DNA from: Kiloniellaceae bacterium
Lineage (GTDB): Bacteria; Pseudomonadota; Alphaproteobacteria; Kiloniellales; J153
DNA length: 48,821 nucleotides
Reading direction: 5' to 3'
Assembly: GCA_021776055.1 (NCBI GenBank)
Contig: JAJFGP010000048.1
Location: 1-48,821 of the forward strand
A program made the position numbers and the translations under genes. The notes under the pieces are model-generated. The model had not been told where the DNA came from, ran no database searches, and saw nothing but the letters and a program-made list of their open reading frames with translations. Shown one piece after another: positions 6,913 through 10,512 of the stretch (its first letter is position 1; the number at the start of each line of letters is the position of its first letter).

Positions 6913-7743
6913 ATGGGTCAAGCGGGGTCAAGGAGACCGCGTCCTGGCGCCGGTTCCGAGGCCGAGAGGAACGGGCCCATGGCAATTCCGATTTCGCCCG
7001 CGCAGCCGAGGGACCTGGAGGCGGCCGTCCAGGCATCCTTTCAGCCCGACGGCGAGCGGCGGACCGCCGAGCAACACCTGGCTTGGCTGACGGCCAAGGC
7101 GAGCGCGGCGCAAGAGAAGCCATATCACTATCTTCTCGTTCTCCGCTTTGCCTTGATCAACATCATCGGCCTTTCCCTGCTCGGCGTTGCGTACGCGCAG
7201 GGCTTGGTGTCAAAAATTCTGCTCGGCGACCAGACGTATCTATCAGTTGTGATTTTCGTGGTGTTCCTTGCCGGGCTCGGCATATGTGCCAGTAAGATCT
7301 GGCAAACCAGCTGCCAGCTCAACGACGTGAAATCATTCGATCCCCTGGTGCCGTCGGGCGCCGCCACCTACCTGGCGCAAATGCGTGGTCGTGACGGCGA
7401 TACCCGCGGCATTCTGGCGGCGTCGCTGCGCCTCAAGTTATCGCACCGCATCGCGGTCGTTCGCCACGTCGCCAGCAGCTTGGTTATCCTTGGTCTGATC
7501 GGAACAGTGATCGGCTTTATCATCGCTCTCTCCGGCGTTCACCCGGATCAAGCTGCCGACGTCAAGGCTATCACGCCGATGGTCTCGACCCTGATCGCCG
7601 GCATGTCGACCGCGCTCTATACCACGCTGGTCGGTTCGGTGCTCAATGTCTGGCTGACCATCAACTACCACATTCTATCCGGCGGCACCGTCAAGCTGAT
7701 TACGGGATTGCTGGAGTTCGGTGAAGAGCATGGACGAGCTTGA
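6913..7743 (+). CDS. MotA/TolQ/ExbB-like proton channel protein
   Basis: Four hydrophobic segments are visible: FALINIIGLSLLGVAYAQ, YLSVVIFVVFLAGLGICA, then SLVILGLIGTVIGFIIAL and STLIAGMSTALYTTLVGSV. The last two match the core of the MotA/TolQ/ExbB family, in which pentamers drive proton flow through a partner with a single membrane helix. The loop between segments 2 and 3 is large and cytoplasmic. An AAGGA site lies 6 bases before the ATG at 6913; a second ATG at 6979 with GAGAGGA is also plausible and gives 254 residues. The gene overlaps the next by 23 bp, and its partner carries an ExbD-like transmembrane Asp. No TonB, Pal or flagellar gene is nearby, so the driven process is unknown. 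Confidence 0.8.
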   Translation: MGQAGSRRPRPGAGSEAERNGPMAIPISPAQPRDLEAAVQASFQPDGERRTAEQHLAWLTAKASAAQEKPYHYLLVLRFALINIIGLSLLGVAYAQGLVSKILLGDQTYLSVVIFVVFLAGLGICASKIWQTSCQLNDVKSFDPLVPSGAATYLAQMRGRDGDTRGILAASLRLKLSHRIAVVRHVASSLVILGLIGTVIGFIIALSGVHPDQAADVKAITPMVSTLIAGMSTALYTTLVGSVLNVWLTINYHILSGGTVKLITGLLEFGEEHGRA

Positions 7744-8335
7744 TCTCTTCAACGACGAAGGCAGCGACACGGTCTTTCGCGATGTCATTTTCCTGGCCCT
7801 GGCGGGCTTTGTCGCCATGGTGCTTTTGCTACTCCCGCACCTCAATCCGCCCGCTACCGCCAATGAAGGCGCGCCCGCACCGGGCAACGTCATCGTCGAG
7901 TTGAACTGGCCGAAGGAACTCGACACCGACATCGATCTTTGGGTCGAGGCGCCCGGCGACGTTCCTGTCGGCTATTCAAACAAAGGCGGCCTGATCTTCA
8001 ACCTTCTGCGCGATGATCTGGGCGGTCAATCCGATGTGACCGACATCAACTACGAGGTCTCCTACAGCCGCGGTGTGCCGGTCGGCGAATACACGGTCAA
8101 CGTCCATCTTTACCGGGACATGTCCGGCCGTTTGCCGATCCCGATCACACTTGCCGTCAGCGTCAAACCAAAACCACAGATCGCAGCCAAGCGCATCCTG
8201 ACAACGAAGATCGAACTGCAGCACCAGGGGCAGGAGATCACGGCCTTTCGTTTCAGCCTCGACGAAGAGGGCAATCTCGTGCCCGGAAGCGTTCACGATC
8301 TGCCAAAGCCCTTGCGCTCAAAGAAGAAGGGCTGA
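7721..8335 (+). CDS. ExbD-like single-pass protein with DUF2135-like periplasmic domain
   Basis: A 204-residue protein with one membrane segment near residues 20-41. The sequence FRDVIFLALAGFVAMVLLLLP places Asp21 at the start of the helix, the position and context of the essential Asp in ExbD/TolR (FIDVMLVLL). The periplasmic part starts VIVELNWPKELDTDIDLWVEAP and continues with short strand patterns, including GVPVGEYTVNVHLY. It resembles the DUF2135 / YfaP-type beta-sandwich. A GTG at 7721 and an ATG at 7730 are both usable; GGAG at 7713 favours the first. The gene overlaps the channel gene before it and the membrane gene after it (TGATG), so the three are surely one operon. I infer a proton-driven periplasmic machine. 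Confidence 0.7.
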   Translation: MKSMDELDLFNDEGSDTVFRDVIFLALAGFVAMVLLLLPHLNPPATANEGAPAPGNVIVELNWPKELDTDIDLWVEAPGDVPVGYSNKGGLIFNLLRDDLGGQSDVTDINYEVSYSRGVPVGEYTVNVHLYRDMSGRLPIPITLAVSVKPKPQIAAKRILTTKIELQHQGQEITAFRFSLDEEGNLVPGSVHDLPKPLRSKKKG

Positions 8336-8865
8336 TGAGAGACCTTATCCCCCTCTTCGCGGCTTTGGGCCTGCTTGCGGCGGTTCTCGCGCATATTGCC
8401 ATTTGGTCGCCCCGAGATCTCTGGGTCAAGGTAGGCGCCTTGGCAACGACGGCTGCTTTCATGCCGGTCGCCTACCTGAGCCTGTCGACCATGCTCAGCC
8501 GGCCAAAGCCGATCGAGATGGAATGGTCGCGCGACCACCTGACGGAGGCAGCTGTGCTCGGTGCCCGGCTGGAAGAGGGTAAGGCTATCTATGTCTGGCT
8601 GGAAATGGACGGCGTCGACGAGCCACGCGCCTATGTCCTGCCCTGGAGCGAAGAATTAGCCAAGCAACTTCACGGCGCACAGCGCTCGGCCGAGCAGACC
8701 GGAACCAAGGTTCTTATGCGCAAGCCGTTCGAAAACTCGCTCGACGAGCAGGAGCAACTGTTCTTCGCGGCCCCTGTCCCACCGCCACAGGAAAAGGAAG
8801 AAGGTCCGCAGAACGCTCTCCGCTTCGAGCATTCCGAGACTGAACCGAACAGCACCGACAATTAG
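8335..8865 (+). CDS. Conserved-looking membrane protein, third gene of channel operon
   Basis: A 176-residue protein of unrecognised family. It begins with two membrane helices (IPLFAALGLLAAVLAHIAIW and VGALATTAAFMPVAYLSL). A globular cytoplasmic or periplasmic part of about 75 residues follows (EGKAIYVWLEMDGVDEPRAYVLPW), and it ends with a Pro/Glu-rich, probably disordered tail (PVPPPQEKEEGPQ). Its ATG overlaps the TGA of the preceding gene, so translation is coupled and a direct partnership with the channel and its DUF2135-like partner is likely. Nothing in the sequence shows an enzyme active site. Confidence 0.6.
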   Translation: MRDLIPLFAALGLLAAVLAHIAIWSPRDLWVKVGALATTAAFMPVAYLSLSTMLSRPKPIEMEWSRDHLTEAAVLGARLEEGKAIYVWLEMDGVDEPRAYVLPWSEELAKQLHGAQRSAEQTGTKVLMRKPFENSLDEQEQLFFAAPVPPPQEKEEGPQNALRFEHSETEPNSTDN

Positions 8866-8922
8866 ATCGGCGTCGGTTAGCCTTCTTTACGGCCGCGCCC
8901 CGACGTGGCAATTACCCCCATC

Positions 8923-10512
8923 ATGGACGAGCATCTCGCAACACCCGCGATGACGGGGAAAGGCGCCATTGCCTGCGGCCATCCCGCGACCGCCGCCGCG
9001 GCGCAGGAAATCCTTGAGGACGGCGGCAATGCCTTCGACGCGGCGCTGGCCGGCCTGTGCGCGGCAACCGTTGCCGAACCGGTCTTTTGCTCGCTCGCCG
9101 GCGGCGGCCATCTCCTAGCGCACCGCGCCGACGGATTTTCCCAAGTCTATGATTTTTTTGTCGAGACACCGCGACAACGGCGTCCGCGGTCCGAGATCGA
9201 TTTCACCCCGGTTCTGGCCGACTTTGGCACCGCGACTCAGGAGTTTCATATTGGCTTAGGCGCCATCGCTACGCCTGGCCTCATCGCGGGCTTGTTCGCA
9301 GCGCACGCCGACTTGGCCAGCCTACCCGTCTCCCGCTTAGTAGAGCCGGCGATTCGAATGGCACGAGACGGCATCCTCCTTCGCCCCATCGATAGCTATA
9401 TCTTTCAAGTCGTCGGCCGGATTCTCACAGCGCGGCCGGAGGGTCGGACCCTTTTTACCAGGGATGGCGATTGCCTGCTCAGCACCGGCGATCGGCGGCG
9501 CCAGCCGGAGTTGGCCACAACGTTGGATGCGCTCGCCACCGAGGGACCCGCCTTGTTTTACGAAGGCGAGCTAGGGCGGCGCCTCGTCGCCGATTGTCGA
9601 ACCTTGGGCGGGCAAATTACAGAGGCGGATTTGACCGGGTACAAAGTTGTCAAACGGGCGCCCCTTGAGCGGCGCTACCGTGATGCGCGTATCCTGACCA
9701 ATCCGCCGCCATCTTCGGGCGGCATTCTAATCGCCTTCGCCCTGGCACTACTCGAGCAGGCCGATCTCACACACGGCGGCCACGGGTCGGCCAATCATCT
9801 CGGCTCGCTGGCACAGGTCATGAACCTGACCAATCGGGCTCGGGTCGAATCGCGCTTGCACGAAGCCGTGGCCGAAGCCGAGGAAGCGGCCGCCGCCGCC
9901 CGCCTTCTCGATCCGGCGTTACTCGCCCGCTATGCCAAGGAAGTCAGCGGCCACCCCTGCAATCCACGCGGCACCACGCACATCAGCGTCGTCGACGCCT
10001 CCGGCAACATGGCTGCCTTGAGCACGTCCAACGGCGAAGGATGCGGTTATATCCTGCCGGGCACTGGAATCATGCTCAACAATATGCTGGGCGAAGAGGA
10101 TCTCAACCCGCGCGGATTCCACGCTTGGCCCGAGGGCTGCCGGATATCGTCCATGATGGCCCCCACGATTGCCTTTCGGGACGACGGCCGGGTCGCCGCG
10201 CTAGGCTCCGGCGGATCCAATCGAATCCGCACGGCTATCCTGCAAGTTTTGGTCAATCTCATCGATTTCGACATGCCTGCCGAAGACGCGGTATCGGCGT
10301 CCCGCCTGCACATCGAGAATCAGGTGGCCAACTTGGAGGGTGGTATCTCGGATGCCGCCGAGCGAGCCGCTGCTGCCGTCGCCGATCAGACTGTCCACTG
10401 GCCGCCGCACAACCTGGTCTTCGGTGGCGTACACACGGTCACCCGGGACGCCGATGGCCAATGCAATAGTATCGGAGACCCACGGCGCGGTGGTGCCGCG
10501 GTGGTCGTTTAG
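8923..10512 (+). CDS. Gamma-glutamyltransferase family protein
   Basis: An Ntn-hydrolase that, in this family, removes or transfers gamma-glutamyl groups from glutathione and related compounds. The N-terminal part has the family pattern ACGHPATAAAAQEILEDGGNAFDAALA. The self-cleavage site and nucleophile are at GTTHISVVDASGNM, with Thr351 as the predicted catalytic residue counting from 8923. The later part holds NNMLGEEDLNP, then SSMMAPTIAF and GSGGSNRIRTAILQV. Length (529 residues) fits. No signal peptide is visible, unlike the periplasmic E. coli enzyme, so it may be cytoplasmic. A GTG at 8905 would add six residues. The gene stands alone and ends before a strong hairpin shared with the convergent gcrA. 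Confidence 0.9.
   Translation: MDEHLATPAMTGKGAIACGHPATAAAAQEILEDGGNAFDAALAGLCAATVAEPVFCSLAGGGHLLAHRADGFSQVYDFFVETPRQRRPRSEIDFTPVLADFGTATQEFHIGLGAIATPGLIAGLFAAHADLASLPVSRLVEPAIRMARDGILLRPIDSYIFQVVGRILTARPEGRTLFTRDGDCLLSTGDRRRQPELATTLDALATEGPALFYEGELGRRLVADCRTLGGQITEADLTGYKVVKRAPLERRYRDARILTNPPPSSGGILIAFALALLEQADLTHGGHGSANHLGSLAQVMNLTNRARVESRLHEAVAEAEEAAAAARLLDPALLARYAKEVSGHPCNPRGTTHISVVDASGNMAALSTSNGEGCGYILPGTGIMLNNMLGEEDLNPRGFHAWPEGCRISSMMAPTIAFRDDGRVAALGSGGSNRIRTAILQVLVNLIDFDMPAEDAVSASRLHIENQVANLEGGISDAAERAAAAVADQTVHWPPHNLVFGGVHTVTRDADGQCNSIGDPRRGGAAVVV

Follow-up and report, generated by a model that had tools for sequence, protein, structure and literature searches.

A conserved gene trio pairing a MotA/TolQ-family subunit with a beta-sandwich partner: a candidate ion-driven inner-membrane motor in alpha- and gammaproteobacteria

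A contig from a Kiloniellaceae bacterium (assembly GCA_021776055.1, contig JAJFGP010000048.1, positions 1-48,821; this whole stretch of 48,821 nt is referred to as “the window”) carries three overlapping genes in the order P1-P2-P3. They encode a MotA/TolQ/ExbB-family A subunit, a B-subunit-like protein with a single predicted membrane helix and a periplasmic beta-sandwich, and a third membrane protein with two predicted helices. The trio is found repeatedly in alpha- and gammaproteobacteria, and on balance we regard it as probably forming a self-contained 5:2 ion-driven inner-membrane motor, with a shaft of neither the ExbD nor the MotB type and with P3 as an obligate membrane partner.

An earlier, sequence-only reading of the locus had suggested an undescribed proton-driven envelope machine. 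The periplasmic part of P2 and the P3 protein indeed match no described family, and the trio is not recorded in the literature searched (subscription journals and preprints lay outside the scope). The class of machine, however, is not new, as B subunits of motors that bear unrelated domains in the periplasm have already been documented (PMC12505986, PMC12204202).

Organization of the locus

The trio occupies positions 6979-8865 on the forward strand of the window (Table 1). P1 most likely starts at ATG 6979 and not at 6913, and P2 at ATG 7730 and not at GTG 7721; both starts were corrected because the downstream codons are the conserved ones. Due to the shift of the P2 start, the residue previously numbered Asp21 becomes Asp18. 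The overlap between P2 and P3 amounts to a single nucleotide, and thus all three genes overlap, as had been noted before. Because of these overlaps, the trio is likely transcribed as one unit; a simple scan of the locus for sigma-70-like promoters found none, and no convincing terminator was detected. Compared with their relatives, P1, P2 and P3 are all under purifying selection, with dN/dS values well below 1.

Table 1. Coordinates of the trio in the window and of related features in other loci
Feature	Coordinates	Strand	Description
P1	6979..7743	+	254 aa; MotA/TolQ/ExbB-family A subunit (PF01618 match, helices, charges, invariant residues, own clade)
P2	7730..8335	+	201 aa; B-subunit-like; helix ~18-37 with F16/D18, linker of ~14 aa, beta-sandwich 52-180
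P2 Asp18 codon	7781..7783	+	Asp21 in the numbering of the sequence-only reading; invariant in the 26-sequence alignment; kept in 7/17 and lost in 10/17 further P2 proteins
P3	8335..8865	+	176 aa; two-helix protein whose C-terminal alpha/beta domain closes with a conserved P...P.K segment
P1/P2 overlap	7730..7743	+	14 nt; exactly 14 nt in 28/34 loci
P4 genes	L087:8136-8828; L089:8172-8882; L090 about 8333-9010; L061:7165-7857		Directly 3' of P3
A. brasilense copies L173 and L177	NZ_CP032340.1 1145785-1146390 and 1171488-1172096		Plasmid p1

P1, the putative A subunit

P1 was assigned to the MotA/TolQ-type channel family by the sequence-only reading, and Pfam bears this out: the protein matches PF01618 with an E-value of 1.3e-8 and 35.1 bits against a cut-off of 22.9. 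Its four predicted helices adopt a MotA-like topology, and helices 2 and 3 are joined by a short, positively charged cytoplasmic loop. The P1 family profile matches the solved structures of MotA and PomA via helices 3 and 4, i.e., the TM3/TM4 pore region, where the GT and TT motifs align. Three threonines, T176, T215 and T216, are invariant across the 23 sequences of the main P1 alignment.

Four PF01618 proteins are encoded in the genome of the source organism, namely TolQ, MotA, a further MotA-like protein and P1. TolQ adjoins the only ExbD (PF02472) match of this genome on contig C101, and both the TolQ/TolR and the MotA/MotB genes are located on contigs other than that of the trio. In a tree that took in TolQ, ExbB, MotA and the further MotA-like group (termed C122-like after its contig), drawn from related genomes, 29 P1 proteins group together in a single clade with 99% ultrafast bootstrap support, apart from all four of these groups. 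Closest to P1 in the midpoint-rooted tree is another PF01618 family of approximately 290 aa, represented by L233 and L234 (G018 C7 and G009 C1).

P2, the putative B subunit

P2 harbours one predicted membrane helix, at which only F16 and D18 are invariant among 26 sequences ranging down to 27% identity. The best alignment of this helix with that of ExbD places TVFRDVIFL on TPFVDVMLV, Asp on Asp, and its score of 21.0 exceeds the maximum of 17.4 obtained when the columns of the ExbD helix were shuffled 60 times. The proposal of a lone helix with an ExbD-like Asp is thus upheld at the level of the helix. Judged by profile comparison alone, P2 resembles ExbD just weakly (hhalign probability 3%, P 0.014), and a Pfam search up to an E-value of 10 yielded no ExbD match for P2. 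Likewise, neither the MotB plug (PF13677) nor an OmpA domain was matched by P2 in Pfam and NCBIfam, and the MotB matches of the genome lie elsewhere. Nor did a von Willebrand factor A (vWA) domain match P2 up to an E-value of 10 in either collection.

The periplasmic domain is therefore unlike ExbD or MotB by sequence, as the sequence-only reading had stated, and the likeness to DUF2135 that it proposed is real but remote. In Pfam, P2 matches DUF2135 (PF09906) with an E-value of 0.031 and 14.8 bits, which is under the gathering score of 22, while the profile-profile comparison by hhalign reaches 91% probability (E 1e-6). The beta-sandwich of P2 hence appears to be remotely related to DUF2135/YfaP. 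In the literature searched, DUF2135 is unmentioned, and the mentions of YfaP are uninformative. Three proteins of about 960-1150 aa (L095:2987-6439, L096:6470-9352 and L097:4083-7121) weakly match the P2 sandwich profile with their C-terminal part, and their loci contain no motor genes.

A sequence search against solved structures gave no match for P2 beyond chance. The AlphaFold model of P2 is of middling confidence (pLDDT 68), and Foldseek returned nothing under an E-value of 0.001 for the P2 and P3 models. In structure comparison P2 resembled MmpS5, DUF4425, TerD and C2-like domains, all with Z under 8, and for this reason a family name from the fold search was dropped for P2 as well as for P3. 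The invariant residues of the domain include W60, D67, D69, R94, D95, D96, G98, D102, N107, E109 and R114 (26 sequences). Because of this invariant acidic run and a moderate structural resemblance to TerD and C2-like folds, we would guess that the sandwich carries a divalent-cation site.

Exceptions at Asp18 and at the pore threonines

In the main alignments, which include the window, Asp18 (26 P2 sequences) and all three threonines (23 P1 sequences) are present without exception. Among the further P2 proteins (Table 1), all 10 that lack the Asp belong to a single alphaproteobacterial large-genome family, f49 (L073-L082), and carry Val at position 18. The f49 P2 proteins contain an Asp four residues before this position and a Lys four residues after it, and the f49 P1 proteins that were read keep their threonines. 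Three gammaproteobacterial P1 proteins (L087, L089 and L090; family f83) read LGLLGKVIGF instead of LGLLGTVIGF, so that the TM3 Thr is replaced by Lys; the P2 Asp is retained in these trios. In the P1 protein of L094 the TM3 Thr is changed to Asn.

The previous suggestion that P1 and P2 are likely a real proton channel pair accordingly does not extend to every member of the family. The main group, including the window, has the residues that an ion-driven pair should show, yet the family as a whole does not. Since f49 has lost the Asp, and the gammaproteobacterial P1 proteins and L094 have changed the Thr, proton coupling should be claimed solely for members that have retained these Asp and Thr residues. 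In f49, the coupling chemistry has probably been altered or lost.

P3, the third membrane protein

P3 comprises two predicted helices, in agreement with the sequence-only reading, and a small C-terminal alpha/beta domain (AlphaFold, pLDDT 68). Across 33 sequences, the mean number of Lys and Arg residues is 2.9 in the inter-helix loop vs. 0.2 at the N-terminus, and the stretch past helix 2 is also fairly positive (mean 2.2). Given the strong positive charge of the inter-helix loop, which the N-terminus lacks, the C-terminal domain is probably periplasmic. Conserved or nearly conserved residues are P57, P59, I85, W88, P97, R98, P103, P147 and K154.

Searches of Pfam, NCBIfam, PHROGs and PDB sequences gave no family match for P3, and its profile matched neither ExbD, MotB nor DUF2135. 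Structure comparison of P3 produced nothing coherent, with Z under 8. A weak PADLOC match to ThsA (E 1e-3), which falls mostly on the two-helix region, was set aside.

Distribution and genomic neighbourhood

P2 was detected in 31 of the 98 relatives sampled and, in the phylum as a whole, in 19 of 398 sampled genomes; three of these 19 are large DUF2135-like proteins without adjoining P1 or P3. P3 occurs in 15 genomes of this set of 398 and always lies beside P2. The trio is therefore widespread, and its genes travel together. P1 lies directly upstream in trio loci, and the gene order is conserved with the exception of L053, which shows the order P1-P3-P2. The sole motor locus without a P3 profile match is L088, in which a two-helix open reading frame of similar build adjoins P2. 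The megaplasmid p1 of Azospirillum brasilense harbours two complete trios approximately 26 kb apart. An 8.2-kb contig of a Chromatiales metagenome-assembled genome (L035) also contains a trio, the P2 of which is 61% identical to that of the window; it represents either a transfer or a contig misplaced in its bin.

No Tol, Ton or flagellar family was found among the 22 other window proteins scanned, in keeping with the sequence-only reading. Among 128 neighbouring proteins from 29 loci there is no recurrent neighbour family; the most frequent, response regulators, occur in 5. A gamma-glutamyltranspeptidase gene repeatedly adjoins the trio within the same family, whereas at L034, the sole additional locus to be compared directly, just a distant homologue (30% identity) is present. 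The enzyme was therefore taken as a sign of shared synteny and discarded as a functional clue. The window proteins gave no match in PHROGs, and the PADLOC similarity to ZorA is at superfamily level only; a phage or defence origin was rejected on these grounds.

In three gammaproteobacterial loci and one alphaproteobacterial locus a fourth gene, P4, follows directly 3' of P3 (Table 1). It encodes a protein of approximately 230 aa with a lipobox in at least two of the four products, and the P4 family shows a weak DUF3108-like match only. P4 was not found in the 58 searched genomes nearest to that of the window.

A candidate motor and alternative explanations

The model that we favour takes MotA/B, ExbB/D and TolQ/R as its guide for assembly, ion flow and rotation (PMC9389320), and for the trio the 5:2 stoichiometry, the use of protons, the ion flow, the rotation, the role of P3 and the function in the envelope are to be read conditionally. 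Five P1 subunits would form a ring around paired P2 helices, and protons would pass via P2 Asp18 and P1 T176, T215 and T216, so that P2 turns or tilts with respect to P1. The shaft would consist of the C2/TerD/YfaP-like beta-sandwich, kept near the membrane by the linker of approximately 14 residues; because the linker is so short, P2 itself would be unable to reach the outer membrane. P3, with its two-helix anchor and putatively periplasmic alpha/beta domain, would be the obligate partner that receives or regulates the movement of P2. In one branch P4, a predicted lipoprotein in at least two cases, may provide the next link and is a candidate outer partner. Points that argue for a motor are the family membership of P1 together with its pore match to MotA and PomA, the register of the Asp, the conserved gene order and overlap, the co-occurrence of P3 with P2, the absence of any other recurrent neighbour, the separate clade, the selection on all three genes and the precedent of documented motor partners with unrelated domains (PMC12505986, PMC12204202). 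Against it count the weak profile match of P2 to ExbD, Val18 in f49, the Thr changes in gammaproteobacterial P1 and L094, the middling models and the lack of an informative neighbour.

The same short linker, and the lack of a conserved force-receiving partner outside the operon, would also suit a gated ion channel or sensor, in which the P2 sandwich senses a periplasmic signal, possibly calcium, and opens an ion path under the regulation of P3. The invariant acidic residues D67, D69, D95, D96, D102 and E109 point in this direction, as does the middling likeness of P2 to TerD, C2-like and other beta-sandwiches, some of which bind calcium. However, the structural matches all fall under Z 8 and may reflect just a common sandwich, those members of the MotA/ExbB/TolQ group that have been studied are regarded as motors whose B subunit moves (PMC9389320), and the loss of Asp18 in f49 would be odd for a conducting channel; we consider this explanation unlikely. 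That loss, along with the loss of the TM3 Thr in gammaproteobacterial P1, speaks for another reading, in which much of the family no longer conducts protons and forms a static scaffold on a motor fold. This is improbable, given that Asp18 and the three threonines persist without exception in the main alignments, to which the proteins of the window belong.

Two more readings assign the trio to known machineries. As a distant Ton or Tol system, it would have P3 as the TonB or TolA equivalent, in line with a three-gene layout of channel, D-helix protein and third membrane protein and with the Pro-rich C-terminal tail of P3. We disfavour this possibility and give it slightly less credence than a static scaffold: P3 has two helices and neither an SHLS motif nor a long linker, the ExbD model misses P2, the one ExbD of the genome adjoins TolQ on another contig, and P1 groups with neither TolQ nor ExbB. 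A Zorya-like anti-phage system is suggested by ZorA, which is the best NCBIfam model for P1 (E 2e-4) and is also matched by P1 among the PADLOC models (best E 1.5e-6). Yet P1 scores 20.5 bits against a ZorA cut-off of 100, the match is confined to the pore region common to the whole superfamily, P2 has no PADLOC match, and no neighbour family recurs, be it of defence or other function, rendering this the least probable of the alternatives.

A bolder version of the motor reading is possible, if doubtful: the trio may represent a separate and long-maintained class of envelope motors, whose A ring drives a calcium-binding sandwich shaft that acts via its dedicated two-helix partner at the surface of the inner membrane, and not on TonB, TolA or peptidoglycan. 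The f49 lineage would then have moved or discarded the proton-binding Asp.

Implications

Should the trio be a motor, it would be a distinct addition to the few known 5:2 motors, with a shaft and a partner unlike those of Ton, Tol, Mot, Gld, Agl, Zor and vWA systems. Only three genes encode it, and it is present in the laboratory-tractable A. brasilense, which is a good experimental host. The lineages with a changed Asp or pore Thr would offer a direct test of which residues a rotary mechanism really needs, and if the distinct-class reading were true, f49 would be a natural experiment on motor coupling.

Comparison with known systems

The trio shares its four-helix A-subunit topology with MotA/MotB and PomA/PomB, and the best solved-structure matches of P1 are MotA and PomA. 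P2, however, lacks the MotB plug and the OmpA domain, the cytoplasmic loop of P1 is shorter, and the genome encodes a MotA and a MotB in addition to the trio. With ZorA/ZorB the trio has in common a MotA-type pore core and an Asp-helix partner; it differs in that the ZorA score is far under the cut-off, no peptidoglycan-binding domain was recognised in P2, and no recurrent effector gene is found nearby. The P2 domain shares with E. coli YfaP and DUF2135 a beta-sandwich, the W....D.D motif and acidic residues further on, but it scores under the gathering threshold, and the sampled DUF2135 proteins were found by the domain alone, not as helix-anchored motor partners.

The generic ion transporters (GIT), e.g., ExbBD and TolQR, carry many unknown appended domains (PMC12505986). 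Like them, the trio has adjacent A and B genes, an A core with Thr motifs and a B helix with Asp, whereas P1 forms a separate clade, P2 is devoid of the ExbD domain and P3 is not TonB or TolA. The nearest precedent are the “transpore helix” motors of the TolQ-vWA type, in which a D-helix is placed on a foreign domain without tolR or exbD nearby (PMC12204202, Mol Biol Evol 2025, section 8). Both systems directly pair a TolQ/MotA-type gene with a single-helix Asp protein that bears a non-ExbD periplasmic domain. Theirs is a vWA domain, and the partners often come in pairs; the trio instead combines a DUF2135/YfaP-like sandwich with a four-helix A subunit and an obligate two-helix P3. From its sequences, the trio thus appears to be a further variant of the TolQ-vWA or appended-domain kind of motor, with P2 and P3 matching no described family.
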